Origin: a virus
DNA: 64,000 nucleotides
Virus record (IMG/VR): IMGVR_UViG_3300037189_023790
Span: 29,665 to 93,664 of that record
Reading direction: 5' to 3' (one strand)
Shown here: piece by piece, positions 1 through 14,613 of the stretch
How the letters are laid out: each line of letters opens with the position of its first letter
Numbering within the stretch: position 1 is the first letter of the stretch
Made by a program: the position numbers and the translations under genes
Notes under the pieces: model-generated
Told to the model about the DNA's origin: nothing
The model's input: only the letters and a program-made list of their open reading frames with translations
The model's database searches: none

Positions 1-3000
1 CTCCTGAAACATCTTTTAACTCTCCTTCATTAGGAAACATTCTTAAATTAGAATCAGAAGAATACGGAACAGCTAAAGGATTTTTTAATCAATGTGAAGA
101 CCAAGCAGAGTATAAACTTTTATCTCAAGCTCATTACAACCTTGCTATCATCTTAGGTACAATCTTAGGAGAAGCTGTAGAGTTTGATGATGGAAGTGGT
201 CAAGCTTCTAATATGGGACAGGGAATAGGTGGTATAGTGGGGGGTGCTATAGGAACTGCTATTGCTCCGGGAATTGGTACATCTATAGGAAGTGGATTAG
301 GAGGAATATTAGGAGGACTTGTTGGAGGAGCTATTTCTAAAAATAACGACTTGGAAGATTTTTGGAGAGCAAATGTAATTCTTTCTCAATGTGAAAAAAT
401 TCTTCAATTATTTACACTTCTCGCTAAAGGGAAGAACTATGCTTGGCAATATCAGGCTGTAGGTAAATACAGTAATTCTAAAGTGGTTCCTAATAACGGA
501 AATAAACAAAGAGAGATTCTTACATCAGGGTATTTAACTCCTTCTAAACAAACTATTTCCTCAACAAATACAACGACATTCTTTAATAATCAAGATAGAG
601 AATCAAGTGTTTATTTAGAATTAAAACAAGATGTTTCTATTACATCTGTTCAGGACACCTCTCGTTTCACTGTAAGAACTTCCTCTAAAGGATGTAGTCT
701 CCAAGCTAATGAAGAAGTAGTTTCTACTGTAAGCTCTTATTATGGAGCTATAAAAAGAAATATTCTAAATCAATATGGTAATGTATTCTCAATTCAATGG
801 TTTCCTACATCTGATGAGATTGCGTCACTAAATAGCAATATCATTACATTTGGAGGAGATACATTTATTGGAAGAATGAGCTTGAAGAGAAAACATTCTT
901 TCTTCTCTCGTACAGCTTTTAAATTAGCTGATGGTACAGAAATATTTTATGAAGATTATCCAAACATAGCACATCCTACATTCTTTTTTAATACAAGATG
1001 GAACGATGATAGTTTGGTAAACTTTACAAATGTTGATGATAATCCATTGATGAAGATGGTGATAAATGCTTTATATACTGGAGAAGTTCCTGATAATATA
1101 ATTAACAATGTTGTAAATGTTCCAAGAGATGAACCCAATCCTTTATTGTTATTAATTCCTGCAATTGGTATTCCTTTATTTACTTATAAAAAATGGTTAC
1201 AACCTAATGTACAATTAGCAGCATACTTAGCAGATATTGGAGGATTCTTTAGGGGTAGCTTACTTTCTCCTTATAATTTTATAAGACCTCCAAGATATTT
1301 ATTAGATTGTTTTGGAGATAGTTTTGGTAATTTACTTCCCGGAAGTAATTCTACATGGTTTAATCTATCCCCTGTAGATGGGAAAATGTATTTATATTCT
1401 TATGGTATTCCTTATTTCTTATGTGAATCTTCTGTTAATTTAGATTTAAGACATCAAGAAGATGATTTACAAAAAGCATTCTATCCTGCTCAATCTAATC
1501 TAAATACATGGTTACAGGAAAAATATGTATCTTCAAAAGAGAATAATTATTATAGTTATAATAGAGATTACTCAAAGCAGAATAAGGAGCAGCTAATTGG
1601 TATTAACGACATTAACTTTTCTCCTTATGAAGATTGTAAAATAGAAAGACCTAACAGAGTTATATTTTCTCAACAAGGAGCAGAAATAGAAGATAATGAT
1701 TTAAAAGATAGTTACTTAAATTTTAAAGCTTTAGATTATTTTGATTTTGGATTAAAAAATGGAAAATTAATTGCAATTAATGCAATTGAAAATGAAAAAA
1801 TACTTGTAAGATTTGAAAATGGCAGTAAATTATTTAGTGCTTATCAAACTATAAATACAGATGTAAACACTATTGCAATATCTAATGGAGATTTATTTAA
1901 ATCAAGACCAATGGATTATGCAATAACAGATTTAGGATATTTGGGAACACAACATGAAGCTTTTGTTTCTACACCATTTGGACATGTTTCAGTAGATGCT
2001 AAAAGAGGACAGGTGTTTCAATTCAATATGAATGGTACATCTCCAAGTGAAATCTCTAATAAAGGAAGGAAAAATTGGTTTAAACAAAATCTACCATTTA
2101 CAATTAGTAAATATATAGAAGGTGTTCCTACAGATAACTCCTATCTAGGAATTGGAATATTATTGCATTACGATAGTAGGTTTAACAGATTGTTTCTTAC
2201 TAAACTAGATTACCAACCTCTAAACTCTTTAATAAGATATTCAAGTGGTAAATTTTATGTAGAAAATGTAGAAGTGTATTTACAAGATAAAGAATATTTC
2301 TGCAATAAATCATGGACTACAAGTTATAATTTCTATACACAAAGTTGGGTAAGTATGCACTCTTTTACACCAAACTTCTATATAGCAAATCAAAACTGGT
2401 GGATGAGTGGATTAAATGGAAATGGAATGGGAGCTTCAAGTGTGTGGACTCACAATCTTACCAACAAATCTTATCAGGTGTATTATGGAAAACTGCATCC
2501 ATTTATTGTAGATGTAAGAGCTTCTCCTTCTATTCAAAATAAAAAGGTAATTGCTGTGGAATATTATCTTGATGTAGTGAGGTTTCATAGAGAGTTTGAT
2601 AAAACTTATGTAAAAGATAAAGGGTTTAATAAAGCTGTAGTAAGTAATCGTTACCAAACTACAGGGTTGTTATTTCTAAAACCCAACGATAAAACTCTAT
2701 TACATCAATTCTTAGAATACCCCAAACCCACTTTAAAAGGAACAGAGATTCTTGTTAATAAATATAAGAATGGTTATCAGTTTAATGATATACTTAATAA
2801 AGCTAAGAATGATGAGAATAATCTACCAATTTGGATTAGTTCCTGTAATAATGTAGAGAAATTCGTAAATTTAGCTGCTGTAAACACATTAGATAATAAA
2901 ATAAGTAACAAATATATTGAAGGACAGGAATTAGAAGTGAGACTTATTAATGATGAAGTTTCAAATAAAAAGATTATATTTAAAGGATTAAAAATAGAAA

Positions 3001-3008
3001 CAACATGA
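1..3008 (+). CDS. Large tail (muzzle/nozzle-like) structural protein, 5' truncated
   Basis: The reading frame is open from base 3, so the gene starts before the window; 1001 residues are visible. The first in-window ATG at 213 is internal, because the codons before it read as normal protein. Near the visible start is a Gly/Ile/Ala-rich stretch (about residues 70-115) that could be membrane-active or a flexible packing segment. The rest is Tyr/Phe/Asn-rich beta-type sequence with blade-like repeats (for example around LGYLGTQHEAFVSTP and YDSRFNRLFLTKLDY), as in beta-propeller tail nozzle proteins such as P22 gp10 or T7 gp12 and the crAss muzzle. Its stop overlaps the next start (ATGA), so it is cotranscribed with the transglycosylase gene. 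That it is a tail protein is fairly likely; its exact position in the tail is inference. Confidence 0.6.
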   Translation, partial: PETSFNSPSLGNILKLESEEYGTAKGFFNQCEDQAEYKLLSQAHYNLAIILGTILGEAVEFDDGSGQASNMGQGIGGIVGGAIGTAIAPGIGTSIGSGLGGILGGLVGGAISKNNDLEDFWRANVILSQCEKILQLFTLLAKGKNYAWQYQAVGKYSNSKVVPNNGNKQREILTSGYLTPSKQTISSTNTTTFFNNQDRESSVYLELKQDVSITSVQDTSRFTVRTSSKGCSLQANEEVVSTVSSYYGAIKRNILNQYGNVFSIQWFPTSDEIASLNSNIITFGGDTFIGRMSLKRKHSFFSRTAFKLADGTEIFYEDYPNIAHPTFFFNTRWNDDSLVNFTNVDDNPLMKMVINALYTGEVPDNIINNVVNVPRDEPNPLLLLIPAIGIPLFTYKKWLQPNVQLAAYLADIGGFFRGSLLSPYNFIRPPRYLLDCFGDSFGNLLPGSNSTWFNLSPVDGKMYLYSYGIPYFLCESSVNLDLRHQEDDLQKAFYPAQSNLNTWLQEKYVSSKENNYYSYNRDYSKQNKEQLIGINDINFSPYEDCKIERPNRVIFSQQGAEIEDNDLKDSYLNFKALDYFDFGLKNGKLIAINAIENEKILVRFENGSKLFSAYQTINTDVNTIAISNGDLFKSRPMDYAITDLGYLGTQHEAFVSTPFGHVSVDAKRGQVFQFNMNGTSPSEISNKGRKNWFKQNLPFTISKYIEGVPTDNSYLGIGILLHYDSRFNRLFLTKLDYQPLNSLIRYSSGKFYVENVEVYLQDKEYFCNKSWTTSYNFYTQSWVSMHSFTPNFYIANQNWWMSGLNGNGMGASSVWTHNLTNKSYQVYYGKLHPFIVDVRASPSIQNKKVIAVEYYLDVVRFHREFDKTYVKDKGFNKAVVSNRYQTTGLLFLKPNDKTLLHQFLEYPKPTLKGTEILVNKYKNGYQFNDILNKAKNDENNLPIWISSCNNVEKFVNLAAVNTLDNKISNKYIEGQELEVRLINDEVSNKKIIFKGLKIETT

Positions 3009-4531
3009 GTTTTTGGGATGAATTAGAAAATGAAGAAGATGCAGATTGGGAGGATGATGGATGGGATGATTCTCTTGATATAGCTATGGAAGAACCAGAG
3101 GAAGATTTTGGTTTTAATTCAGATGAAGAAGAAGAAATAGAAGATTCTTCCTATATTTCTGCACCTACATATCAAGGAGGAAATTCTTTCACAGATGATA
3201 TTGTAAGAAAAGAATCAGGAGGTAATTATAAAGCTACAAATCCTAATTCTTCTGCTGCTGGTAAATATCAATTTCTTTGGGATACTTGGGGAAAAGAAAT
3301 AAAAAATGTTACAGGTGTTTCTTCTAAACAGGAGTTTTTAAACAATCCTCAAGCTCAGGATGCTTTCTATAATGATTATTATGTTCCAAACAAAATGCTT
3401 CCTGCTGTTGATAGAATCAAAAGAAAAACAGGAACAAATATGTCTAATGAACAACTTGCAAAACTTTATCACTTTAGAGGAGAACAAGGAGCGTTAGATT
3501 ATTTATCAGGTAAATTGAAAGATAAACCTGAAGAATATAATTCTAGTATTTCTGATTATATAAAACAATATGGAGGTTCTACTTATGTAAACAAAGAACA
3601 GAAAATACCTTTTATAGAACCTTCTAAAAGTACAACAATCCAAAAGGATTTACTAAAAGCAACTACTCCGGGATGGGAAATTAATAATTTTGAAGATTAT
3701 AAATATCTTACTCCAACACATCAGGAAGAGATTAAAAATAAAATAAGTGCTAAAAATACAATGTATGATTTAGCAGGACATCCTAATATTGGATTTTTAG
3801 GAGAAGAAAGTGAAAGTCTTGTTAGTAAATTAGAAAAACCCTTTATGGGAAAAGGAAGAGCTAATTATGATTTACTTACTAATACTATTAATGTAAAACC
3901 CAATTCAGGATTTTTTCCTGAAATAGCACATACAGTAGATGGAAATGTAAATTATAGTGGAGCAGGAATATTCTCTGATATTATAAGACCTTTTAGTGAT
4001 ATTTATAATGATGGATATAGTTATGAATATGGAACTCACAAAATTGTAGAACCTGAGTTAAGAAAAACTTATAAATGGATTTCTGAAGGAGGAGCTAAAG
4101 CTAATAATGAAGCTTTAAGACCTTATGCAAAAAAACAGTTTGGAGGAGGACAATCATATAATCCTCAATATTATAATGAAAAAGGTGAATTAAAACGAAA
4201 TCAAGGAAGTTTATTAGGAGAGGATTTACAATTTCAAAATTATACGAATTATGAACCCCCTGTTTCTATTCCAAATAATGATGAAAATAATCAACTATAT
4301 GATTTTGGATTTGTAGAAAAAATTCCCGATATTTACAACAATGTTTCCAGTTGGATGAAAAATAAAGGTAGTAGAGTAGCTCAGGGAGTAAGTGGGTTTT
4401 TAGATACTACCAATGATTATCTCTCTGATATTGAAACCACAAAGAAATACAGGAAAATGTCTGAATATATGAATCAAAGCAGATACTTTCCAATTAATCA
4501 AACTGTAAACAACGTTCCAATTTTTACATAA
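3005..4531 (+). CDS. Virion transglycosylase fused to degenerate zincin-like domain
   Basis: This 508-residue protein is modular. Residues 1-50 are extremely acidic (Asp/Glu/Trp). A YQGGNSF segment at 56-62 leads into a lytic-transglycosylase/lysozyme-like fold with catalytic-type Glu70 in RKESGGNY, followed by SSAAGKYQF and a YHFRGEQGALDY helix. Residues about 210-370 resemble a zincin metallopeptidase, but the zinc motif reads PEIAH (305-309) instead of HExxH, so it is probably inactive. KKQFGGG (376-382) marks the next boundary, before a low-complexity C-terminus. The likely role is local peptidoglycan opening during DNA injection, carried in the tail or capsid. The start overlaps the preceding stop as ATGA. 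The enzyme class is well supported; the zincin relationship is inferred from the shared pattern in two other proteins nearby. Confidence 0.75.
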   Translation: MSFWDELENEEDADWEDDGWDDSLDIAMEEPEEDFGFNSDEEEEIEDSSYISAPTYQGGNSFTDDIVRKESGGNYKATNPNSSAAGKYQFLWDTWGKEIKNVTGVSSKQEFLNNPQAQDAFYNDYYVPNKMLPAVDRIKRKTGTNMSNEQLAKLYHFRGEQGALDYLSGKLKDKPEEYNSSISDYIKQYGGSTYVNKEQKIPFIEPSKSTTIQKDLLKATTPGWEINNFEDYKYLTPTHQEEIKNKISAKNTMYDLAGHPNIGFLGEESESLVSKLEKPFMGKGRANYDLLTNTINVKPNSGFFPEIAHTVDGNVNYSGAGIFSDIIRPFSDIYNDGYSYEYGTHKIVEPELRKTYKWISEGGAKANNEALRPYAKKQFGGGQSYNPQYYNEKGELKRNQGSLLGEDLQFQNYTNYEPPVSIPNNDENNQLYDFGFVEKIPDIYNNVSSWMKNKGSRVAQGVSGFLDTTNDYLSDIETTKKYRKMSEYMNQSRYFPINQTVNNVPIFT

Positions 4532-4532
4532 A

Positions 4533-4811
4533 ATGCAAGAAAATATTAATTTAAAAGAACCTACTGCGGAAATAGAATTTGATTTTATTGCTGAAGATTT
4601 GGAATATGATATGTTCACCAAAAAAGAAGAAAAGCTTCTTGCTAAAATGGGAGTGTTAAAAGACCTTCTTGCTGCTGGTGTAGCTATTCCTTTTCAGGAA
4701 GGAATTCAATACAATCCTATTATTGTAGATGATATGTATAGAAATCAACTACAGGATATGTTAATGGCTCTTACAAAAAACTTTTTAGGAAATGCAACTA
4801 AAACCAAGTAA
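4533..4811 (+). CDS. Hypothetical small acidic protein
   Basis: A 92-residue protein that I do not recognise. It begins two bases after the stop of the transglycosylase gene and its end overlaps the Dps-like gene by 20 bases, so translation of all three is probably coupled. The N-terminal half is acidic (Glu/Asp-rich with a FDFIAEDLEYDMF segment). The C-terminal half is predicted helical, with LLAAGVAIPF and a final amphipathic helix. No signal peptide or membrane segment is seen. Its position inside a virion gene block suggests a structural or assembly role, but that is inference only. Confidence 0.7.
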   Translation: MQENINLKEPTAEIEFDFIAEDLEYDMFTKKEEKLLAKMGVLKDLLAAGVAIPFQEGIQYNPIIVDDMYRNQLQDMLMALTKNFLGNATKTK

Positions 4812-5175
4812 ACAGTTGACAAGTGTAGAACTTATTTCTAAACTGTTTCATACAAGAACACAAGTTCATATATTTCATTTACAAACTAATTCTTACGCTG
4901 CTCACAAAGCTTTGGATGAATTCTATAATGGAGTATTAGATTTTGCAGATAGTATAGCAGAAGCTCTGCAAGGAAAAGAAGGAATATTAAAAGGATATAA
5001 ATCTGAACCTTTTATTGAAAATAATACCCCTATTCCTTTTTTGGAAGATTTAAAAAGGGTATTAGAAGCCTATAGAACTTCTCTTCCTACAAATTATGCA
5101 AACATAGATAATGAAGTGCAATCATTAATTACATTAGTAGATACAACAATATACAAACTAAAGTTTCTAAAATGA
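4792..5175 (+). CDS. Dps/ferritin-like protein (DUF5856 type)
   Basis: A 127-residue, all-helical protein. Residues 13-64 carry a ferritin-like pattern: a first helix with His26 and His29 (HIFHLQTNSYAAHKALDEFY), then His38, Asp42, Glu43, and a second helix with Asp50, Asp53 and Glu57 (FADSIAEALQGKEG). This spacing matches the DUF5856 proteins common in crAss-like phages and resembles Dps metal-binding helices. A second pair of helices fills the C-terminal half. A plausible role is binding or protecting packaged or host DNA, or iron handling; direct evidence for function in phages is lacking. The gene overlaps its upstream neighbour by 20 bases and its stop overlaps the endonuclease start (ATGA). 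Confidence 0.75.
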   Translation: MQLKPSKQLTSVELISKLFHTRTQVHIFHLQTNSYAAHKALDEFYNGVLDFADSIAEALQGKEGILKGYKSEPFIENNTPIPFLEDLKRVLEAYRTSLPTNYANIDNEVQSLITLVDTTIYKLKFLK

Positions 5176-6026
5176 TTGATAAGTATAATTATTTAATCAA
5201 TAGTAAAGTTGGAAAATTAACAATACTTTCTTTAGAAAAGAAGGAAAAGAAATCTTATATACATGTTAATTATATTTGTGATTGTGGTAAGGTTGGGTCT
5301 ACAAGAGTTTACAATATATTAAATAAACCTAATATTAGTTGTGGATGTAACATGACACTTTCTAAAATTAAATATGATTATAACGAAAACATTTTTAAAA
5401 CACTAAACACAAAATCAGCATATACTTTAGGTTTACTTTACTCTGATGGGTGTTTGGTTAAAAATAAAAACGAAGTAAAATTAGTATTAGTTAATGATTT
5501 TGAAATACTTGAAAAATTATCTATGTTTATATTAAATGGTATAAAAATAAAAACAAGTTATAATTCTTATAATAATGTAATGTATGATTTTAATTTTTGC
5601 AATAGTACAATATATAAGGATTTGTTAAGTTGGGGGTTGTACCCTGCAAAATCTAAAACATTAAAAATACACCCAGATTTAAAATTCAATTCTCATTTTT
5701 GGAGAGGGGTAATAGATGGAGATGGCAGTATTAATTATAAAGTTGACCCTAAAAATGAAAAATATTCTTATTCTAGTGTAGAAGTCTGTGGTACAATTGA
5801 TGTTTGTCAAAGTTTTAAAGATTTTTGTTCTTCTATAATTAATGTAGAAAACATCAAAATAAATAAATCCAAAAAAATTGAAAATTTTGGAGTTTTTAGA
5901 GTCTGTGGTAAAAGAATTGTACCTATTCTTAATAAAATATATGAAGAACATGAAGAATTTTTTATGACTAGAAAAAGAGAAAAGTTTGATGAATATTTAC
6001 AACATTTAATAAAAAATAAAAAATAA
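5172..6026 (+). CDS. LAGLIDADG homing endonuclease with N-terminal zinc-finger-like domain
   Basis: A 284-residue protein with two LAGLIDADG blocks: YTLGLLYSDGCL (about 84-95, catalytic-type Asp92) and FWRGVIDGDGSI (about 176-187). It is therefore a monomeric two-motif enzyme that would cut a long DNA site. The first 60 residues contain a CxC (36, 38) and CxC (57, 59) cluster within a G-L-T-I-L ... CDCG ... SCGC pattern, typical of the DNA-binding module placed before phage HNH, AP2 and GIY-YIG mobile nucleases. It is more AT-rich (many Lys/Asn/Ile) than the structural genes around it, which suggests a separate origin. The start overlaps the Dps-like stop as ATGA. Neither neighbour looks split, so it appears freestanding rather than intron-borne. 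Confidence 0.9.
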   Translation: MIDKYNYLINSKVGKLTILSLEKKEKKSYIHVNYICDCGKVGSTRVYNILNKPNISCGCNMTLSKIKYDYNENIFKTLNTKSAYTLGLLYSDGCLVKNKNEVKLVLVNDFEILEKLSMFILNGIKIKTSYNSYNNVMYDFNFCNSTIYKDLLSWGLYPAKSKTLKIHPDLKFNSHFWRGVIDGDGSINYKVDPKNEKYSYSSVEVCGTIDVCQSFKDFCSSIINVENIKINKSKKIENFGVFRVCGKRIVPILNKIYEEHEEFFMTRKREKFDEYLQHLIKNKK

Positions 6027-6027
6027 T

Positions 6028-6138
6028 ATGAAAACCCCCACAATAAAAATTCCAGCAAAGTTTGAACCAAAACCTATTCCTACCAAACCAATGAAATATG
6101 GTGGAGCAGGAATGAAAAAATCTAAAGGAAAATGTTAG
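6028..6138 (+). CDS. 36-residue basic peptide ending in an MKYGGAG motif
   Basis: A very short frame starting two bases after the endonuclease stop and overlapping the next start (ATG at 6132). The peptide is Lys/Pro-rich (KIPAKFEPKPIPTKP) and then reads MKYGGAGMKKSKGKC. Its MKYGG resembles the QMGG, QYGG and QFGG motifs found at module boundaries of the large proteins encoded on both sides. The tight spacing and motif support it being translated. It could be a peptide tag, a substrate for a maturation protease, a basic internal capsid peptide, or the remnant C-terminus of a gene displaced by the endonuclease. None of these can be chosen from sequence alone. Confidence 0.55.
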   Translation: MKTPTIKIPAKFEPKPIPTKPMKYGGAGMKKSKGKC

Positions 6139-6416
6139 AAGAATCAGAAGATATAACTATTAATTTTTTCACAAATTATGGATTTTCATATCTATACTTT
6201 GATGAAAAAGATGGAGAGAAGGAATATGTGTTTGAACACCCATCTAAAGAAGATAAGAATTGGCAATATACAGCTACATACTATTGGCCTTCTAATGATT
6301 TAAATATTGTGAAGGAACACAAATACAGTAAAGACCCTGTTTGGTATTCTGTTTATGATGGAAAATTAGATAAAATAGATGATTTAAAACATATTAAAAG
6401 ATTGGTGTTGGTTTAA
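6132..6416 (+). CDS. Hypothetical protein
   Basis: A 94-residue acidic protein rich in Tyr, Trp and Asp (FDEKDGEKEYVFEHP, YTATYYWPSNDL) that I do not recognise. It looks like a small beta-rich fold with no signal peptide or membrane segment. It is the last gene of the first rightward block, overlaps the 36-residue peptide gene by 7 bases, and is followed within 5 bases by a clear terminator hairpin. Confidence 0.7.
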   Translation: MLEESEDITINFFTNYGFSYLYFDEKDGEKEYVFEHPSKEDKNWQYTATYYWPSNDLNIVKEHKYSKDPVWYSVYDGKLDKIDDLKHIKRLVLV

Positions 6417-6420
6417 ATTA

Positions 6421-6450
6421 AAAAGCTCCCTAAATAAGGAGCTTTTCTTT
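6421..6450 (+). terminator. Rho-independent terminator of first rightward block
   Basis: A perfect 9-base stem AAAAGCTCC / GGAGCTTTT (6421-6429 with 6438-6446) with an 8-base loop is followed by a T-rich tail. It sits right after the stop at 6416 and ends rightward transcription of the tail/lysozyme block. Confidence 0.85.
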
Positions 6451-6461
6451 TATAATAAAAA

Positions 6462-6486
6462 CCCTCTTATCCAGAAGATAAGAGGG
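6462..6486 (-). terminator. Terminator of leftward three-gene island
   Basis: A perfect 10-base stem CCCTCTTATC / GATAAGAGGG with a 5-base loop. Read leftward it is followed by TTTTATTATA, so it is oriented to stop transcripts from the genes at 6635-7158. It lies 15 bases beyond the rightward terminator, which makes a back-to-back convergent pair. Confidence 0.75.
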
Positions 6487-6530
6487 AAAAATCAAACACA
6501 AAATATGAATACACTAAATTTTAAAAGGGT

Positions 6531-6581
6531 TCCAGTTTCACTAACATGCTATTGTTTCGACTGGGGATGTAGGAAACTGGA
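6531..6581. other. Long imperfect hairpin in intergenic region
   Basis: Bases 6531-6539 (TCCAGTTTC) pair perfectly with 6573-6581 (GAAACTGGA). Next to them CTAACAT (6541-6547) can pair with ATGTAG (6567-6572) with one bulged A, leaving a loop that contains GTTTCGACTGGGG. The element lies in the 218-base gap between the convergent terminator pair and the leftward island. On the leftward transcript it would be in the 3' untranslated region just before the terminator. A 40-codon rightward frame (6505-6627, three Cys) overlaps it, but I cannot tell whether that is translated. It does not fold as a tRNA. Confidence 0.4.
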
Positions 6582-6634
6582 GATACAAATGTACAATAAA
6601 GAATTAGTAATGTCAAGTTTTTTCTAAATTATTT

Positions 6635-6826
6635 TTACACTTCTAATTCTTGATGAACAAAATCATAAGCTTTCTCTTGTTTCTTTAAATCAGATTTTAG
6701 CTTATTTAAAGCAGTAAAGAATTCTCCAGCAGGAATGTAACTCCCCTGTTTAATATTTCCAAGTACACCTGTATAAGCTACTACAGGAGTAAAACTTTCC
6801 ATTAATTCAATTAGTTTCTTTTCCAT
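6635..6826 (-). CDS. Hypothetical small helical protein
   Basis: A 63-residue protein that I do not recognise. It is helical, with a C-terminal Lys/Glu-rich amphipathic region (FFTALNKLKSDLKKQEKAYDFVHQEL) suited to a coiled coil. It is the last of three overlapping leftward genes: its start lies inside the end of the 56-residue gene upstream (20-base overlap), which supports translational coupling. It is probably an accessory early protein. Confidence 0.7.
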   Translation of the reverse strand: MEKKLIELMESFTPVVAYTGVLGNIKQGSYIPAGEFFTALNKLKSDLKKQEKAYDFVHQELEV

Positions 6827-6977
6827 TTTGTTCTGCTATTTGTAACTGTTTTAATATCCAAATTTCATCTTGCATACATTCAATCTCTATTTGTAATTGT
6901 TTAATCCTATCTGTAATAGATACTGGTTTTTCTTCTTGGAAAAGAATTGTATTATAAACTTTATTTTGAATCGTCAT
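6807..6977 (-). CDS. Hypothetical 56-residue coiled-coil protein
   Basis: A short leftward frame beginning at the ATG at 6977 inside the end of the upstream gene (17-base overlap) and ending inside the start of the downstream gene. From residue 15 it is a continuous heptad-like helix (ITDRIKQLQIEIECMQDEIW, then ILKQLQIAEQ). Overlapping starts on both sides and the absence of any other frame in this gap make it likely to be real. The function is unknown; small coiled-coil phage proteins are often inhibitors or adaptors, but nothing here shows that. Confidence 0.6.
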   Translation of the reverse strand: MTIQNKVYNTILFQEEKPVSITDRIKQLQIEIECMQDEIWILKQLQIAEQNGKETN

Positions 6978-7158
6978 CTTGTATATATTTAATTGTGTAG
7001 TTTACATCTAATAGTTGAAGAGCTTTGTAAAGTCCTCGTAATACATATTTAGCATCATTTCCATTCATATTAAAAATTGTTTCAAAATCATTATCATTTA
7101 AATACTTTACTTTTATTTTCCAATAATAATTAAAATCTTCAGTTACAAATATTTCCAT
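6961..7158 (-). CDS. Hypothetical small protein
   Basis: A 65-residue protein that I do not recognise. It has the look of a small alpha/beta fold: two beta strands (IFVTEDFNYYWKIKVKYL), a helix (DAKYVLRGLYKALQLL), then a final strand. It is the first gene of the leftward island, downstream of a Bacteroidetes-like promoter, and its end overlaps the 56-residue gene. Confidence 0.7.
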   Translation of the reverse strand: MEIFVTEDFNYYWKIKVKYLNDNDFETIFNMNGNDAKYVLRGLYKALQLLDVNYTIKYIQDDDSK

Positions 7159-7217
7159 ATTTACTATTTATTTTAATTAACTATTATTATTTTCTATCTC
7201 TTATTGTTAAATTTAAA

Positions 7218-7249
7218 CAAATTTACAATTTAGTATAATGCAAAACAAA
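7218..7249 (-). promoter_or_regulatory. Bacteroidetes-type promoter for leftward island
   Basis: Read leftward, TTTG (7249-7246) is followed after 20 bases by TAAATTTG (7225-7218), matching the -33 TTTG and -7 TAnnTTTG elements of Bacteroidetes housekeeping promoters. The start of transcription would fall about 50 bases before the ATG at 7158. The -33 element lies inside the first codons of the rightward gene at 7238, so the two transcription units overlap at their 5' ends. Confidence 0.5.
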
Positions 7250-9337
7250 TTTAATTTTCAGGTATTAGCTGAAAAAGGAGAAATCTATAAAACTCCCCAA
7301 GGAAATCTCAAGCAAATTTCTAATAAAGCACCCTCACATGATGATACTATACAAATATTACCTGACGGTAATACAAAGAAAGCTGCTACAGGAGGTGTTG
7401 TTTTAAATGATGCTCATTCTGTTCTATCAGATAGTTACACCCAAGTAATGAATGGGGATAGGAATAACTCTGAAATGGAACAAGCTGTAAGAATTTCTAA
7501 AAAGGAAGGGAATGACCACTTTCAAGATAAAGGGTTTGACCCAACTTTAAAATCCAGTGTTTCTCCATCTAAATTCTTTTTAAAAGCTGAAGAGGAAGTA
7601 AATAAGCAAGCAAAGAAACTTTCTCGTCCTATATTAACAAAAGATAAATTTGCATTTAATTCTAAAAAAGCTAATGAAGCTTTAAAAAATGCTTTACCAA
7701 CTAGTGAAGAATTGTATGAATGGGTATTTCAAATACAAGAAAGTAAGAAACAATATAGTGATGTAGATTTTAATGTAGATGTGGCTCAATTTGGAAGAAG
7801 ACCTATTATAGTAAATAATCCTAAAGACCCTAGATTACAAGGGTATAAGGATAGTTTGTTTATCTATAATCAAGAACAAAAATACAACAATTTGTTAAAG
7901 AAATTGTCTTCTACTTATAATATTTTTGATAGAGGAAAACAAATAGATAAACTTGTAAATAGTAGCGATTTTAAAAAAAACATACAATTACAGGAAAAAC
8001 TTGATTACGAATTACCTAAAGATAATTTCTACATCTTCACAGATAAGGGTAGAGATTTTGCAACAATACCAACAAAGCCTAAACAAGAAATAGTGTATCA
8101 ACCTAAAAAAAGTTATATAAATACTTATGGTTATAAAGAAGAAAAAGAAGGAAGTAACACTAAGTTTTATGATAAACCAGAGTATGAAAAAAAATACCCT
8201 CCTATTTATGTCACAAATCCTAAAGACCCTAGAATAGGTCGTTACACAGAAGAGGGAAATCAAATATTATATAAAACACCTGCTTTTAAAGAAAAAAACA
8301 CATTTAAAAAAGAAAGAACCTCTGCAATAGAGCTAATTAATGAAGAACCAATTCAAAGTGAGCATTCTTTAAGTTTTGAGCAGATTAATTTACCAGAAGA
8401 GCAACCTTTTATTTTTCCTAAGCAAAAACAATATACGTCAGGACAACAATCTTATGAATTAAATGATGATTATTTACAAAGACTTCATCAAGAAAATGTA
8501 AAAGGAATAAAACAAACTCCAAAATTAATAAGAAATCAATTTGGAGGAGAACAAGAAGATATGGGATTGTTATACAATTTAGGACATACTGTACCAGAGG
8601 ACAAAAAACAATTAATAAAAAATAGTACAGAAAATGAATTTGCAAGAAGTTTTGGACAACAATATTTTTCTTTTAAACCTGCTAAAATTAAAAATGAAGA
8701 TTTTTTATACGGATTAAACTACATGTCTAATTTTCCAAACATATTAAAATTAGAAGAAAGCGATTTAAAAAATCAAAACGTAAGAAGAGCCGGGTATCTA
8801 CCTATTGATAATACAATAATTTTGCCAAAAAAAGGACAATTTAAAAATAGTTTTTTACCAGAATTAGCTCATGCTTATCAGTACAACTCTCCAAATCCTA
8901 ATATGTTTGGTAAATGGGACGAAGTACCGTATTCAAGTGCTTCTGAATATGATGCAAGAGAGTACTCAAGAGAGGGTTCGTTAGAAAATCAAGCACATTA
9001 TAAAATAGATAACTATTTTGATGATGTGGTATTTAGTGAAAAAGAAGGATTAGAAAAGTATAAAACTTTACTTAATCATGACAATAATAAAAACAAAATT
9101 TTAAGAGAGCTATATCATCCTTCTCAAACAGTAACAAAAGAAGAAAATGCTCAAATTATGTTAGAAGCAGAAGAAAATTGGAAACCCAATACTCCCTATA
9201 CATATATTAGTAGAGAAAAAAGAAAAGAATATGAATCTGATATTAAAAACAAAAATCAAGAAATATTTTTAAAGGGCAGAAGAAAACAATTTGGAGGAAC
9301 GAGTACAACGAGTAATCCACTATTTAAATATTTATGA
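7238..9337 (+). CDS. Cargo/structural-type protein with degenerate zincin domain
   Basis: A 699-residue protein. The N-terminus (EKGEIYKTPQGNLKQI, then VVLNDAHSVLSDSYTQV) resembles the start of large virion proteins of crAss-like phages. Two short internal repeats of the form PI-V-NPKDPR occur near residues 190 and 327. QFGG (434-437) precedes a zincin-like module whose zinc motif is PELAH (541-545), followed by EYDARE at 570-575, where zincins usually carry the third ligand. The first His is replaced by Pro, so it is probably not an active peptidase. A second QFGG (684-687) stands 12 residues from the C-terminus. It is likely an internal or tail-associated virion protein. It is the first gene after a divergent promoter region, and its stop overlaps the next start (ATGA). 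Confidence 0.6.
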   Translation: MQNKFNFQVLAEKGEIYKTPQGNLKQISNKAPSHDDTIQILPDGNTKKAATGGVVLNDAHSVLSDSYTQVMNGDRNNSEMEQAVRISKKEGNDHFQDKGFDPTLKSSVSPSKFFLKAEEEVNKQAKKLSRPILTKDKFAFNSKKANEALKNALPTSEELYEWVFQIQESKKQYSDVDFNVDVAQFGRRPIIVNNPKDPRLQGYKDSLFIYNQEQKYNNLLKKLSSTYNIFDRGKQIDKLVNSSDFKKNIQLQEKLDYELPKDNFYIFTDKGRDFATIPTKPKQEIVYQPKKSYINTYGYKEEKEGSNTKFYDKPEYEKKYPPIYVTNPKDPRIGRYTEEGNQILYKTPAFKEKNTFKKERTSAIELINEEPIQSEHSLSFEQINLPEEQPFIFPKQKQYTSGQQSYELNDDYLQRLHQENVKGIKQTPKLIRNQFGGEQEDMGLLYNLGHTVPEDKKQLIKNSTENEFARSFGQQYFSFKPAKIKNEDFLYGLNYMSNFPNILKLEESDLKNQNVRRAGYLPIDNTIILPKKGQFKNSFLPELAHAYQYNSPNPNMFGKWDEVPYSSASEYDAREYSREGSLENQAHYKIDNYFDDVVFSEKEGLEKYKTLLNHDNNKNKILRELYHPSQTVTKEENAQIMLEAEENWKPNTPYTYISREKRKEYESDIKNKNQEIFLKGRRKQFGGTSTTSNPLFKYL
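7801..8245 (+). repeat. Two short protein repeats (NPKDPR) inside the 699-residue protein
   Basis: The segments encoded at about 7801-7855 (PIIVNNPKDPRLQGYKDS) and 8199-8245 (PPIYVTNPKDPRIGRY) share the core V-x-NPKDPR followed by Tyr. Similar NDPRL-type motifs recur in other Bacteroidetes phage proteins, so this looks like a repeated linker or binding element. Confidence 0.6.
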
Positions 9338-9588
9338 AATATCTTTTAATTTTTTTACTACTTACAAATTGTGCTAAATCAATTACACAAAAAGAAATAG
9401 AAGAATTAAGAAAAGAAAATAGGAGAATGGCAAGAGAATTTGTAAATATATCCAGAACACATTCAGAGTTTGTTTATAAATATAAAAGAAAACTTGCAGA
9501 AAAAGACACTATTATTTCCTACCTTAAATCAAGAAAAAGAAATGCTAATAGAAGAATACAAATACCTACAGATGATTTCTCCTACTAA
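9334..9588 (+). CDS. Small signal-anchored or lipoprotein-like coiled-coil protein
   Basis: An 84-residue protein with a short hydrophobic N-terminus (KYLLIFLLLTNC) and Cys13, which could be a lipidation site, although Asn before the Cys is unusual. The remainder is a highly charged helix (ITQKEIEELRKENRRMAREF, then YKYKRKLAEKDTIISYLKSR). This architecture fits a membrane-tethered coiled coil, such as a spanin subunit or other envelope protein. The start overlaps the previous stop as ATGA, and the end overlaps the next frame by 47 bases. A spanin role is only a suggestion: no second spanin gene is evident beside it. Confidence 0.6.
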   Translation: MKYLLIFLLLTNCAKSITQKEIEELRKENRRMAREFVNISRTHSEFVYKYKRKLAEKDTIISYLKSRKRNANRRIQIPTDDFSY

Positions 9589-9754
9589 ACTGTTTAAGAA
9601 TAAGAGAGAAGTGACGGAATTCTTACAAATTCCTTCTACAATTCAAGATTTAGAAGCATTTCTAAAACAATGTGAAGAAGAAGAATTGTATGGATATTGT
9701 GCTTTAATAAAAAACAAAATAGATGAAAAAATCAAACAGCAATATGAGATATAA
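9542..9754 (+). CDS. Small UVR-like helical protein
   Basis: About 70 residues if the ATG at 9542 is used (60 from the ATG at 9572). A longer frame back to 9470 is open, but would overlap the upstream gene by 119 bases and is less likely. The C-terminal segment DLEAFLKQCEEEELYGYCALIKNKIDEK has the spacing of the UVR helical hairpin (found in UvrB/UvrC and ribosome-associated regulators), a protein-interaction motif. It overlaps the following large gene by 32 bases. Function in the phage is unknown. Confidence 0.55.
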   Translation: MLIEEYKYLQMISPTKLFKNKREVTEFLQIPSTIQDLEAFLKQCEEEELYGYCALIKNKIDEKIKQQYEI

Positions 9755-12700
9755 AAAGATGCAAATGGGTGGAGAGCAGGAACAAATCTTGCAATTTCTA
9801 CAACAATATGCACAGGAAAAAGGAATTGACCCACAAGCATTAATTGCAGATTTTCAACAAGCTACTCCTGAACAACAACAGGAATTTCTTGCTCAATTAC
9901 AAGAACAGGAAACAGAAATGCAATATGGGGGAGCACATTATAATAAGAATTTAAATTACATTCTTCCTAATTCTATATTAGACAGAAAAAACAAAGATGT
10001 TGAAGAACCTACCTTTAAACTAAAAAGAAAAGAACTCCAAGGAGATAGAAGAAATGGATATGCTGCTTATGAACAAGATGGTGATATTTATATGAATAAT
10101 ATTAATGATGAACCATTAAAGCAACACGAAACTTTTCATTATTTAAGAAGTAAAGGGTATTTTTCTCCAAGAGAACAAGCAATTGAAGATGAATTATTAG
10201 ATGGTTCAATCTACTCTCCATTAGATAAAAATAAACTTAATACTGATGTTTATTCTCCAGAAGAACTTGCTGCTCGTTTTCATTCTATAAGTGGGTATTT
10301 ACCTAATAATTATAAAGAAGAGGATTTTAAAAAACTTTGGGAAACAGGAAAAGATTCACAAATACAAGATTTAAAACAAGTGATACCTTATGATAAAGCT
10401 TTGTATTATATGAACAATTATCATCCTTCTAAAATGCAAATGGGAGGAAATTCTTTTAACGTTAACAACGCAAAATCTTCTGGTAAAAAAGCAGTTTTGA
10501 AACAAGCTAACTGGCTAAATGATTGGTATGGTACAAGAGATATAGTAACAGAACCTATTAAACTTACCTCTGATGTATTTAACTATGAATATTATCCTAA
10601 TCCTGAGACAAGACCTAAAGAAGTAAAAGATACAGTACAAGAATTAGAAGAAACGTGGGGATTTGAACCCGGTGGATATAGTGATAAAAATGTAAGTGTC
10701 TTTTTATCAAATCCTGCTAATACTACAAACCCTATACATGAATTTACACATGCAATTGACAGAAAGCATGGAAATTTTGGAACTAAAACTACTCCCAACA
10801 TATTAAAACGGTTATATGATGAATTATTTGGAAATGATTTAAAAACTGATTATAGAAAACTGAAGATAAAGCCATTAAAAGAACATAAATATTATACAAA
10901 TCCACAAGAGTCTTATGCAAGATTAAATGAACTTAGATATACATCTGGATATGAACCTAATTATAAACCTACTATAGAAAATATTCAAACACTTAGAAAA
11001 AAGAATAAAAGGAATAAATTATTTAAGCATTATGATGATAATTCTATTATGCAAATGTGGAATGGGTTATCTTCTAATGATTTTACATCTCCTACAATAG
11101 ATAATCCTATGTTACAACAAACAGCAAAGTTTGGAATCAAAAACAAAATTCCAAGAAGTGAAAAAGGAATGTATGAATTTCCAAATCAACCTGTGGTAGT
11201 TCCTACAAGAGGTACAGGTAACATCACTATGTCAGGAATTAATTACCCTGTAGAAGCTTATAATGCCAACACAATGGAGTATTTAGATTTAATGCAACCT
11301 AATCAGGAATATCAATTTGATGGTGTAGATGATGTGTTAGAAATTCCACAAGCTAAATTTGGAATTCAGAAAATGCAAGCAGAAGGAAAAGTAAGAATAA
11401 AAAAAACAAGTAATGGTAATTTTATAGGAGATGATGGTTATGAGTATGGATACGATAAAAATAAAAATCAGTTTTATAAAATAAACAAATTTACAGAAGT
11501 TATTGTTCCAAATAATGCTATCGAAGTTGTAGATTTTAACTTAACACAAGAAGAAAAAAATAAATTTTTAAAAAATATTTTACCAGAAGTTCAAATAAAA
11601 GGAAAAAAACCAAAAGCTACTGATTATTTTCAAAAACCTATAACAAAATTTCCAAACAGTTTTAATCTTTCTTATAATGCTGTAGACAGTACATCTAATT
11701 ATTCAGAAAATACTCCTGTAGAAGCTATTGGTAATTCTAATTTAAGAGTAGGAGACAAAGTGGATACTGTTGGAAGAACTCCTGTAAAAAACTTTGAAAC
11801 TGCAAATAAGAATCCTTTAAAAGAAGATTGGGTAAACGAATGGGGTGAGGTTGACTCCTCTTTTAAAGACAAATCTTTTGAACAACAACAGAAGTTTGCA
11901 AAAAACTATATAAAAAGTTATTATCCTGAATATTATAATGGATTAAGTAAAAGTTTTAAAGGATTTAATATTGATAAAATGACATCTGATAAGAAATTTG
12001 GAAATATAACAAATCAATTAAGACCTTCTTTAATTACAGGAAATATTAATAATTTATCTAATCATAAGTTATCTGATTTAAATTTTTTTGAAACAGACCC
12101 CACAAACCCAGAAGACGGAATTGGAATTTTTCCTATTGTAAAATCCTCTTCTCCTTTTCCTGTATTAGAAGATACACCTTATTTACTTGATAGACAAAAA
12201 GAAGATATTCCTTTAGAATTAAAAAATTTAGGTAAACTTGACACAAGAGATTATTCTTCTCAATATCTTTCTAATGCTAAATTAAGAAATAATAGAGTGA
12301 TGGCTCCTTATTTTAGAAGAAGTGATTTAGCTCTTCCAGAATTATATCAGGAAGATGTATCTCCTTATCTTGGAAATATTAATCGTATGGTGAGAGGAGC
12401 AATGCAAAATATAAATTCTAACTCAACTGTAGGACAAGCTGCTTATCAGCAATTAGCAAGTAATGCTGCATTTCAATCTAATGCAGTACAAGGTCAAGTT
12501 GCTAATAGAAATTTAGAGAGAAAGATTACTTGGAATAATACAGTTGCAGGAATTAAATCTCAACAATCACAAATAGATGATGCTAACAGAGCAGGATATA
12601 CAGATGATTGGATGAAAACATTAGCTGCAAAGGATAACGTGGACAATCTTATAGACTTACAAGCTGCTCAATTTAAAATGAATAAGCAAAGAGAGGGAAA

Positions 12701-12860
12701 TCAAAATATGATGAATGCAGCTATAAGTAGTATGATAAATCCTAATTATGATTTGCAGATTGATAATGAAGGAAACATCTTATATGGAATAAAGCAAGGG
12801 CAGAAATTTAAAAATTCCTATGTTAGTAAATTTGGTTTAAAAACAAAAGCTCTCTATTAG
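9723..12860 (+). CDS. Large virion cargo-like protein with two zincin metallopeptidase domains
   Basis: 1045 residues; a start at 9744 (MRYKKMQMGG) is also possible. The modules are separated by a repeated motif: QMGG at 14-17, QYGG at 67-70, QMGG at 239-242, and shorter KFG(I/L) variants later, including near the C-terminus. Domain one has HETFH (135-139) and a probable third ligand in EELAAR (180-185). Domain two has HEFTH (339-343) with Glu396 in QESYARLNELR. Both match intact gluzincin-type zinc sites. Residues 10-60 form a Gln-rich helical segment, and the C-terminal third is Asn/Gln-rich helix typical of injected or structural proteins. It may process virion proteins or act on host envelope or cytoplasmic targets after injection. 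The final codons and the stop lie inside a terminator hairpin. Confidence 0.7.
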   Translation: MKKSNSNMRYKKMQMGGEQEQILQFLQQYAQEKGIDPQALIADFQQATPEQQQEFLAQLQEQETEMQYGGAHYNKNLNYILPNSILDRKNKDVEEPTFKLKRKELQGDRRNGYAAYEQDGDIYMNNINDEPLKQHETFHYLRSKGYFSPREQAIEDELLDGSIYSPLDKNKLNTDVYSPEELAARFHSISGYLPNNYKEEDFKKLWETGKDSQIQDLKQVIPYDKALYYMNNYHPSKMQMGGNSFNVNNAKSSGKKAVLKQANWLNDWYGTRDIVTEPIKLTSDVFNYEYYPNPETRPKEVKDTVQELEETWGFEPGGYSDKNVSVFLSNPANTTNPIHEFTHAIDRKHGNFGTKTTPNILKRLYDELFGNDLKTDYRKLKIKPLKEHKYYTNPQESYARLNELRYTSGYEPNYKPTIENIQTLRKKNKRNKLFKHYDDNSIMQMWNGLSSNDFTSPTIDNPMLQQTAKFGIKNKIPRSEKGMYEFPNQPVVVPTRGTGNITMSGINYPVEAYNANTMEYLDLMQPNQEYQFDGVDDVLEIPQAKFGIQKMQAEGKVRIKKTSNGNFIGDDGYEYGYDKNKNQFYKINKFTEVIVPNNAIEVVDFNLTQEEKNKFLKNILPEVQIKGKKPKATDYFQKPITKFPNSFNLSYNAVDSTSNYSENTPVEAIGNSNLRVGDKVDTVGRTPVKNFETANKNPLKEDWVNEWGEVDSSFKDKSFEQQQKFAKNYIKSYYPEYYNGLSKSFKGFNIDKMTSDKKFGNITNQLRPSLITGNINNLSNHKLSDLNFFETDPTNPEDGIGIFPIVKSSSPFPVLEDTPYLLDRQKEDIPLELKNLGKLDTRDYSSQYLSNAKLRNNRVMAPYFRRSDLALPELYQEDVSPYLGNINRMVRGAMQNINSNSTVGQAAYQQLASNAAFQSNAVQGQVANRNLERKITWNNTVAGIKSQQSQIDDANRAGYTDDWMKTLAAKDNVDNLIDLQAAQFKMNKQREGNQNMMNAAISSMINPNYDLQIDNEGNILYGIKQGQKFKNSYVSKFGLKTKALY

Positions 12861-12872: not shown

Positions 12873-13316
12873 TTATTCTTCCTGTAGTTTAATTATTTTA
12901 TTTATCTCTTCATCAAATGTTGCTTCTTCTATAATGAAGTTTTGATATTCTTTACCGCAACAGGATGTATGACAATTACAGTATTGTACATCAGAAGCAC
13001 AACTCATTGATAAAATAGGGTTTATTACTTTAAAAGTTATATTCAATTTATAACCTTTTCTTTCAATATATTTACAAAAGTAATTATCTATAACATTCAT
13101 GAATCCTTTTGATTCCAAGAACTTTCTTGTTTGAATATAACTCTCAGATGAAGCATTATAATTTTTCTTTTGTCTATTAGCAAAATATTGCATTCTTGCT
13201 AATTTACCTTTCATTATATTATAATCTGTATCAAAAAATACTCTGTCTTCCTTATTTCGTTCATATTCCTGAACTAAATTATAAACATTTTTATCAAACC
13301 ATTTTTTAGATTCCAT
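12873..13316 (-). CDS. Hypothetical protein with C-terminal Cys cluster
   Basis: A 147-residue protein that I do not recognise. The N-terminal two thirds are Lys/Tyr-rich helix (YNLVQEYERNKEDRVFF, MQYFANRQKKNYNASS). The last third has six clustered residues, Cys-x5-Cys-x-Cys-His-x2-Cys-Cys (within CASDVQYCNCHTSCCGKE), that could bind a metal. It is the last gene of the second leftward island and ends 4 bases from the bidirectional terminator. Confidence 0.7.
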   Translation of the reverse strand: MESKKWFDKNVYNLVQEYERNKEDRVFFDTDYNIMKGKLARMQYFANRQKKNYNASSESYIQTRKFLESKGFMNVIDNYFCKYIERKGYKLNITFKVINPILSMSCASDVQYCNCHTSCCGKEYQNFIIEEATFDEEINKIIKLQEE

Positions 13317-13317
13317 A

Positions 13318-13734
13318 TTATAAAGATTTTAATCTTTCAAGTACATCTTTTGGTGTATGTCCATCAAATTCAAATAAAGCTTTATCCACTTCACGAATTT
13401 TAAACAGCTCCCAATCTTTAGCTTTATAATGATTGCTAATCAGTCCTGTTGGTAATAGAGCAGAAACTATAAACCATTTCTTTTCTTTTTCAAAACAATA
13501 TTCTCCATCATAATGTTTCCATGATTTATGAACAAAATAATCATATTCATCTACAGCAAGTGTGTTAAACAAAGCAGCATTATACATTTTTCTAAATTCG
13601 TATAATTCTTCAAATGAATGCCATCCATCGCTTATTCCATCTGTAGGAATCTGAAAGAAATTAATTAGCTTATTAATCATTTCAGCATTTAACTCATCAA
13701 TATCAATTTCAATCTTGTTGTTTACTATTTTCAT
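13318..13734 (-). CDS. Hypothetical protein
   Basis: 138 residues from the ATG at 13734 (MKIVNNKIEIDIDEL). A longer open frame to 13803 is less likely, because it would deepen the overlap with the upstream gene from 26 to about 95 bases. The protein is Trp/Tyr/Phe-rich and acidic, with a C-terminal helix ending FDGHTPKDVLERLKSL. I do not recognise a family. It is second to last in the leftward island, one base from the next gene. Confidence 0.65.
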   Translation of the reverse strand: MKIVNNKIEIDIDELNAEMINKLINFFQIPTDGISDGWHSFEELYEFRKMYNAALFNTLAVDEYDYFVHKSWKHYDGEYCFEKEKKWFIVSALLPTGLISNHYKAKDWELFKIREVDKALFEFDGHTPKDVLERLKSL

Positions 13735-14041
13735 TATGATAAGGTTTAAAGTATTGTTCAAATTCTTGAAAAAGTCCTGATGATAGATTTTGAATATGTG
13801 CATAATCCATCCAATAGTATTTTTCTTTATAAAACAACCTTATAATAGGGTAGTAGGTAAAACTAAAATTATCATCAGATAGATTTAATGCAAAACTATT
13901 TAAATAGTTCTCAATAGATTGAGGAAATTCTACAGGAAAAAGTAAAATATTTTTATGTATCACTTCATCTATTTTAATACAATACATAGGATAGGAAATT
14001 GTTTCTCCTTTAATAGTACAATCAATTAGTTCTATTTTCAT
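13709..14041 (-). CDS. Hypothetical protein
   Basis: A 110-residue protein that I do not recognise. It starts with beta strands (KIELIDCTIKGETISYPMYCIKIDE) and continues with aromatic-rich segments (FSFTYYPIIRLFYKEKYYW). It overlaps both its upstream (20 bases) and downstream (26 bases) neighbours, as is usual in this densely packed leftward island. There is no membrane segment or signal peptide. Confidence 0.65.
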   Translation of the reverse strand: MKIELIDCTIKGETISYPMYCIKIDEVIHKNILLFPVEFPQSIENYLNSFALNLSDDNFSFTYYPIIRLFYKEKYYWMDYAHIQNLSSGLFQEFEQYFKPYHNENSKQQD

Positions 14042-14294
14042 TTTTTAAAATTTTAATGATTTCTTCAAATGTTTTATTTTCAAATTTGAGATTCTCTGGA
14101 AGAATATAACCTTTTTTATAATGCTCAGCTACTTCCTGTATTATTTTTTCAAAATCTTTTAATGTACTTTTTACAGGAATTCTTCTTGTATATCCTGTAG
14201 CTCTATCAAGAACAGTAACATCAGATTGATATAGGTGCTCTTGATAAACATCTATACCATTTAATTTATATGTATCAAACATATTATTCTGCAT
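14022..14294 (-). CDS. Hypothetical small protein
   Basis: 90 residues (86 if the second Met is used). It has a strand-rich N-terminus (TYKLNGIDVYQEHLYQSDVTVLD) and a C-terminal helical half rich in Lys/Glu. I do not recognise a family. The start overlaps the end of the 57-residue gene upstream, which indicates coupled translation. Confidence 0.65.
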   Translation of the reverse strand: MQNNMFDTYKLNGIDVYQEHLYQSDVTVLDRATGYTRRIPVKSTLKDFEKIIQEVAEHYKKGYILPENLKFENKTFEEIIKILKNENRTN

Positions 14295-14457
14295 TAGGAT
14301 TTAGTTGAATCCAAGTTCCATCTGAATTTCTTTCAATAGAATTTTCATCAGTTTCTATTATTGGTATATTTGAAATTGCTAAATTAATTGGTTTTGCTAT
14401 CACTTCTAAAACTCTTTCAGAAATAGTAGGAACAGAAATAGATTTTTTACGTGGCAT
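14284..14457 (-). CDS. Hypothetical 57-residue protein
   Basis: A short leftward frame starting at the ATG at 14457 (MPRKKSISVPTISERVLEVI). A basic start is followed by a helix, an Ile/Pro-rich stretch (NLAISNIPIIETDENS) and SDGTWIQLNPNAE. It is supported by the 11-base overlap with the next gene and by a strong Bacteroidetes-like promoter immediately upstream, which makes it the first gene of the operon. It has no recognised family. Confidence 0.6.
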   Translation of the reverse strand: MPRKKSISVPTISERVLEVIAKPINLAISNIPIIETDENSIERNSDGTWIQLNPNAE

Positions 14458-14477
14458 GTTATTTATTGTTTTATGCT

Positions 14478-14508
14478 CAAAATTAATGATTTATATTTAT
14501 AATTCAAA
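14478..14508 (-). promoter_or_regulatory. Bacteroidetes-type promoter for second leftward island
   Basis: Read leftward, TTTG (14508-14505), a 19-base spacer and TAATTTTG (14485-14478) match the Bacteroidetes -33/-7 consensus exactly in both boxes. Transcription would begin about 10-15 bases before the ATG at 14457, giving a short leader. This suggests that host RNA polymerase reads this island, unlike the flanking late genes. Confidence 0.65.
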
Positions 14509-14539
14509 ATAAATCTAGAAATATTTAAGGTAATACAAA

Positions 14540-14613
14540 TTCTAATTAGAACTGTTAAATTACAGATTCTACACCTATTTTTGTTTCTTAATTCTAACAA
14601 TTATACGTTAGAA
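14540..14613. promoter_or_regulatory. TTCTAA/TTAGAA dyads in divergent control region
   Basis: The 184-base gap between the leftward island and the 846-residue virion gene holds a perfect 12-base palindrome TTCTAATTAGAA (14540-14551) and a second dyad TTCTAAC-N8-GTTAGAA (14592-14613). A further single TTAGAA lies just before the start at 14642. The repeated half-site suggests operators for a dimeric regulator, or elements read by the phage polymerase. A TAnnTTTG-like box (TATTTTTG, 14576-14583) lies between them, pointing rightward, without a clear -33 partner. Confidence 0.45.

Follow-up and report, generated by a model that had tools for sequence, protein, structure and literature searches.

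The locus and its motif-bearing genes

The window (the whole stretch of 64,000 nucleotides analysed here) corresponds to positions 29665-93664 of a virus record 93,664 bases long, and the virus is a crass-like phage. All features described below lie on the plus strand, except where noted. The window opens inside a muzzle (tail-tip) gene and includes its 3' part (1-3008; phrog_37948, virion structural protein, 1.1e-104); tblastn relates it to the muzzle genes of Leptolyngbya phage Lbo-JY46 (41% identity), Cellulophaga phage phi4:1 (35%) and the epsilon crass-like phage csAssE-Sib (32%). The open reading frame listed at 213-3008 is internal to this longer gene, which starts upstream of the window, near position 27690 of the record, and encodes about 1660 aa. 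Between the muzzle gene and the giant polymerase-cassette genes, which begin at 17182, sits a block (3005-12860) encoding three mosaic proteins in which a short motif built around two glycines recurs. This interval between muzzle and RNA-polymerase cassette is where the C1 (gp45-type) cargo of crassviruses is expected; in phiCrAss001 the cargo genes gp45 and gp46 occupy the equivalent place.

The first protein (508 aa, 3005-4531) carries a YQGG copy (3170-3181, QGG at residues 57-59), a transglycosylase module, a QYGG copy (residues 188-191, 3566-3577), a zincin-like module, a QFGG copy (residues 378-381, 4136-4147) and a tail; its lysozyme module is 66% identical to that of the related locus L012. 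The second (699 aa, 7238-9337) begins with an 'EGEI..HEGG' module (residues 12-186) and an 'NPKDPR' module (about 182-365), followed by a zincin-like module that is preceded by QFGG at residues 434-437 (8537-8548) and followed by QFGG at 684-687 (9287-9298). In the third (1045 aa, 9723-12860) a QMGG copy (residues 14-17, 9762-9773) precedes a helical segment, QYGG (residues 67-70, 9921-9932) stands before a first zincin, and a further QMGG (residues 239-242, 10437-10448) separates this zincin from a second one. Degenerate copies then open and close a beta module that we call ITM (residues 472-545, 11136-11357), namely AKFGI at residues 468-472 (11124-11138) and again at 544-548 (11352-11366), and after the tail a last degenerate copy, SKFGL, is found near the C-terminus (residues 1035-1039, 12825-12839).

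The zincin fold of these modules is a prediction. Both zincins of the 1045-aa protein have the HExxH of zincin metallopeptidases (HETFH and HEFTH), while the corresponding sites of the 508-aa and 699-aa proteins, PEIAH (residues 305-309) and PELAH (541-545), lack the first histidine, and to judge from these residues the two latter modules may be inactive.

A preliminary description of this DNA had listed QxGG-type copies in these three proteins and in a 36-residue peptide. When the translations were checked, every listed copy was found at its residues, and indeed two of them are followed by an NSF segment (QGGNSF and QMGGNSF). The list was incomplete, having overlooked QYGG 188-191 of the 508-aa protein and the three degenerate copies of the 1045-aa protein. 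The giant polymerase-cassette proteins, in which it had found no QxGG, do contain one QQGG, at residue 504 of the 2693-aa protein.

The lysine-rich 36-aa peptide (6028-6138), with KYGGAG (KYGG at 6094-6105), is of uncertain membership: it has no homologue in the loci examined, is too short for testing, and may be unrelated to the motif proteins. Loose look-alikes, tiny peptides rich in lysine and Gly-Gly, occur in phiCrAss001 (L011 26877-26945, 22 aa, unannotated) and in csAssE-Sib (L008 4720-4842, 40 aa), and it is possible that these two are head micro-proteins.

Several neighbours deserve mention. A LAGLIDADG-type homing endonuclease gene lies within the cargo block (5172-6026; phrog_4645, 2e-30). 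A DUF5856 / phrog_858 protein is encoded at 4792-5175; related sequences occur in L012, L020 and L024, and it weakly matches the 'DpsA' gene product of phiCrAss001. Small open reading frames at 12873-14600, between the 1045-aa gene and the next large gene, are on the minus strand in an otherwise plus-strand block. That next gene encodes an 846-aa protein (14642-17182) in the position of cargo protein 2; it is conserved in 50 relatives, lacks QxGG and has no detectable match to gp46.

Occurrence of the motif in the window and in relatives

As a null model for the window, each protein was shuffled internally 5000 times. The block contains seven Q.GG (0.43 expected), eight [QK][FYM]GG (0.16 expected) and eleven [QK][FYM]G[GILM] (0.56 expected), and not one of the 5000 shuffles reached any of these counts. 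The rest of the window has one, none and none, respectively, where 1.85, 1.0 and 3.2 are expected.

Searches of IMG/VR with the single 508-, 1045- and 931-aa proteins returned a near-identical record only. Relatives were found with a four-way muzzle alignment, which yielded 283 of them, and 79 loci were kept. The non-redundant genes that directly follow the muzzle gene (189 proteins, 140 kaa) contain 199 Q.GG where 62 are expected; in all other genes of the related loci Q.GG is below expectation. The fuller pattern [FYM][QK]xGGx[ILMV] is sharper still, with 130 copies just downstream of the muzzle (2.6 expected) and three elsewhere (1.9 expected) in the 79 loci. The motif is carried by 49 of the 51 genomes with enough downstream sequence. 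At its Q place glutamine is the strongest residue (21-fold), and K, E, R and A follow at 6-8-fold. Hence conservation in relatives, on which the preliminary description had made its proposal depend, is what we find.

It could be argued that this is a chance low-complexity pattern of linkers rich in glutamine and glycine, and the block proteins of relatives are rich in both residues. The counts, set against within-protein shuffles in the window as well as in the relatives, already refute this explanation, and we give it practically no weight. In the relatives the codons at the motif differ little from background usage, which implies that selection acts at the protein level; a signal in the DNA itself, marking the junctions, was considered and is ruled out by the same codon use.

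Other short sequences in this block of the relatives are equally striking. GGW[LIM] is found 67 times against 1 expected and W[LIM][NDSE][KN][YF] 73 times against 1.2, often at the C-terminus (GGWLNKY). The second block protein of the relatives (e.g. L054 15657-18842 and L081 16179-19355) often starts with MKxQILKIAGVKSEKEFYKKFPxEEAFM and ends with RNGSIVKxxKNL, which are conserved terminal tags.

Position of the motif at module borders

In the window and in its relatives the block proteins are put together, mosaic-like, from small modules, and the preliminary description placed most copies at module boundaries. This placement is borne out: for 58% of the Q.GG copies an alignment edge is no more than 3 residues away, the figures for other GGs and for all positions being 34% and 22%. 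Of the motif copies, 22-24% have BLAST HSPs that begin at their aromatic residue or Q, and 20-23% have HSPs that finish at the second G or at +6, versus 2-4% for random positions and other GGs; local alignments tend to snap to conserved residues, so that such a signal is inflated and would in part be seen for any conserved island. Since other GGs have no such edge effect, the signal is specific to the motif.

Twenty-seven aligned N-terminal regions share a common sequence up to ...SPAWGGQFQxGG and continue with differing modules, and in aligned orthologues module swaps fall exactly after QxGG. The ITM module (75 residues, present in 43-53 proteins of relatives, pLDDT about 80-88) is flanked by motif copies on both sides, and the AKFGI that closes it in the window is matched in alignments by LQAGG in Lbo-JY46 and by FQAGG in phi4:1. 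A fold search with this module gave only weak cupin-like matches (E above 0.1), and the viral library returned noise. AF2 models, built from shallow alignments, are poor overall (mean pLDDT 44-51); in that of the 1045-aa protein confidence is high only at about residues 20-66 and 475-545, and it drops at QYGG67 and at both AKFGI copies.

Such exact swaps would also be seen if the motif were a junction by descent only, a tolerated short linker joined by recombination whose role is flexibility alone, and it is true that GG is flexible and that the letters of the motif vary. On the contrary, codon use near background speaks against a conserved DNA junction signal, the aromatic-Q-x-GG-x-hydrophobic pattern is enriched 50-fold, far beyond what a generic glycine linker needs, and other GGs of the same proteins do not mark borders. 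We regard this explanation as unlikely.

Relationship to phiCrAss001 gp45 and other known proteins

A close known counterpart is gp45, cargo protein 1 of phiCrAss001 (Kehishuvirus primarius; PDB 7qog, 7qoi, 7qoj, 7qol, 8ckb). Like the genes of the window block, its gene adjoins the muzzle gene and precedes the RNA-polymerase genes; like their products, gp45 is a mosaic with [QA]xGG where modules meet, and two of its modules are common to relatives of the window. In the half of the phiCrAss001 genome that was scanned, all eight copies of [QA].GG belong to gp45, for which 1.97 are expected; the other proteins have none against an expectation of 4.4. In other respects gp45 differs: it is a single 842-aa protein in which we noticed no lysozyme or zincin module, and its borders are mostly AxGG.

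The first shared module, gp45 residues 228-330, matches the related locus L014 (E 9e-24), and in both proteins motif copies flank it on both sides (AEGGGL/KYGGGL and KAFGGSL/KAQLGGYT). The second, residues 368-424, recurs in L012, L018, L020, L034 and other cargo proteins; it ends with NAFGGWL in phiCrAss001, DDGGWL in cr108_1, GYGGYL in Dulem virus 41 and KQIGGEIEY in L012, the last of which aligns with the AFGGWL at the start of gp45 425-552. The 508-, 699- and 1045-aa proteins have no direct sequence match to gp45, and the link runs via L012 and L014, two loci that have modules in common with gp45 and with the window proteins.

Published cryo-EM resolves two parts of gp45 in the virion: residues 425-552, of which twelve copies interdigitate with the portal wing loops, and residues 214-245 on the tail-barrel wall (PMC10172136). 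When we set these published limits on the sequence, 425-552 opens exactly at A425-FGGWL and halts about 8 residues ahead of the next AYGG, and 214-245 begins a few residues past an AYGG. Thus the virion-bound ordered parts of gp45 lie between motif copies.

The portal-wing-binding domain (425-552) was not detected in the proteins of the window; its profile matches gp45 orthologues only. For this reason we term the window proteins gp45-type and not orthologues of gp45. By eye it was tempting to equate the N-terminal module of the 699-aa protein with the portal-bound domain of gp45, and hhalign gave no significant result; equating the C-terminus of the 1045-aa protein with the gp45 coil was likewise unsupported by hhalign. 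Proteins of this kind very probably reside in the virions of crass-like phages, and the 508-, 699- and 1045-aa proteins are presumed to do so.

Cellulophaga phage phi4:1 provides a second comparison. Its gp040 and gp041 (phrog_36695, phrog_24249) have the same gene position as the window block and are annotated as virion proteins by MS/MS. The former has four QxGG and, as in the window, ITM and EGEI-HEGG modules; the latter has a lysozyme and two zincins with one QAGG between the zincins. Unlike in the window, the lysozyme is of another family (Phage_lysozyme2), and the order of modules differs. A protein of csAssE-Sib (L008 29509-32349) combines an EGEI-HEGG module with a coil at its C-terminus that is of the kind seen in phi4:1 gp040; the epsilon group is reportedly devoid of a gp45 homologue.

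Is the motif a processing site?

The preliminary description offered two functions for the double glycine, a site for a maturation protease or a sorting tag for loading into the capsid. If the first were correct, a phage or host protease would cut after GG and free the modules during assembly or after ejection, in the manner of T4 gp21 or SPN3US gp245 on ejection proteins, or of the GG-specific adenain/Ulp1 proteases. A GG preceded by Q does resemble adenain and SUMO-tail sites, and the motif copies do separate enzymatic modules. Further, ejection proteins of SPN3US are trimmed (PMC7411985), and a processing role on other phage proteins of several domains has been proposed for zincins (PMC5512222).

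Nevertheless, the evidence against cutting seems stronger to us. In the mature phiCrAss001 virion gp45 425-552 is described, in the text of the publication, as one compact continuous domain across AFGG-WL, TQGG-DF and NEGG-SH (PMC10172136), so that these three sites are probably uncut in virions. S78 and ClpP-type prohead proteases are absent from 17 genomes in a search whose controls worked, with the reservation that the window's own genome record may be incomplete. Searches for an S77 prohead protease, and for a C48-type protease (PF02902; adenain/Ulp1, clan CE) in 25 records, gave no match, and in both cases the control was equally silent. As for the zincins themselves, 38 of 49 motif-bearing blocks have no HExxH, and two of the four zincin-like modules of the window lack the first histidine. 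Neither the portal gene nor the putative capsid gene (named by position) carries the motif, beyond one IQGG in the former, and just 11 of 208 copies fall within the first 40 residues, unlike propeptides. We consider a processing site quite unlikely, although cutting may yet take place after ejection or at other copies of the motif.

The capsid targeting sequences of T4 (gp21) and the AXE propeptides of SPN3US (gp245) are, as here, short motifs of ejected head proteins, and they serve loading (PMC7411985). Those motifs are N-terminal and cleaved, whereas the present one recurs within the chain and appears not to be cut, and no protease for it was recognised. Phage polyvalent proteins, too, are injected, large and built of several domains, zincin and lysozyme domains among them, as in the window; in the passages of PMC5512222 consulted no border motif is described for them, and the motif-bearing blocks studied here are mostly free of HExxH.

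A probable border element of cargo proteins

In our opinion the probable explanation is that the 508-, 699- and 1045-aa proteins are cargo of the gp45 (C1) type and that the motif is a module border, a hinge or anchor that most likely stays uncut in the virion. Each of the three proteins would be a chain of small modules that can replace one another (transglycosylase, zincin-like, 'ITM' beta, 'EGEI-HEGG' and others), stored at different places within portal, tail and head and threaded out first, with the DNA following. The element [FYM]-[Q>K,E,R,A]-x-G-G-x-[ILMV] would stand between these modules. Its GG may be flexible enough to act as a hinge, and the aromatic/Gln and hydrophobic residues on its flanks may form a conserved short anchor that is part of the ends of both neighbours. 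A border of this kind would let modules dock separately on portal or tail surfaces, unfold singly and swap between genes.

A hinge, and possibly an anchor, is favoured because the motif is enriched and stands at borders, because an ordered segment of gp45 opens at a copy of it, and because the evidence for cutting is negative. The letters vary between copies (QFGG, AFGG, KFGI), hence a specific binding partner is putative at most. We infer the hinge or anchor function, and equally the docking role, from these observations. Of the two functions first offered, the loading tag thus survives in the form of docking or a hinge, one gp45 copy opening a portal-docked domain, but the protease site is disfavoured. 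The underlying observation stands: the motif is real, non-random, conserved, placed at module borders and confined to the virion-cargo-type block.

A bolder form of the proposal is that [FYM]QxGGx[ILMV] serves the ejection proteins of crassviruses as a general grammar, in which each copy anchors one module to the wall of portal, tail-barrel or muzzle and sets the order of unfolding and exit, so that any module flanked by the motif could be loaded as cargo. This is a tentative speculation, which we ourselves find rather unlikely.

Significance

The motif-bearing proteins as such are not a new kind of protein, being a variant of the known crassvirus cargo. The border grammar appears to be undescribed so far; we found no description of a [FYM]QxGGx[ILMV]-type motif in the open literature (subscription papers were outside the scope of the search). 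Since the border motif is common to phiCrAss001 gp45 and environmental crass-like phages, it may permit cargo to be recognised where gp45 homologues were called missing. It also offers a way to divide cargo proteins into domains for structural work, and a handle for asking by mutation whether loading is directed by short tags. The protein that crassviruses load and eject via a narrow tail amounts to megadaltons, and the border motif bears on how they do so.
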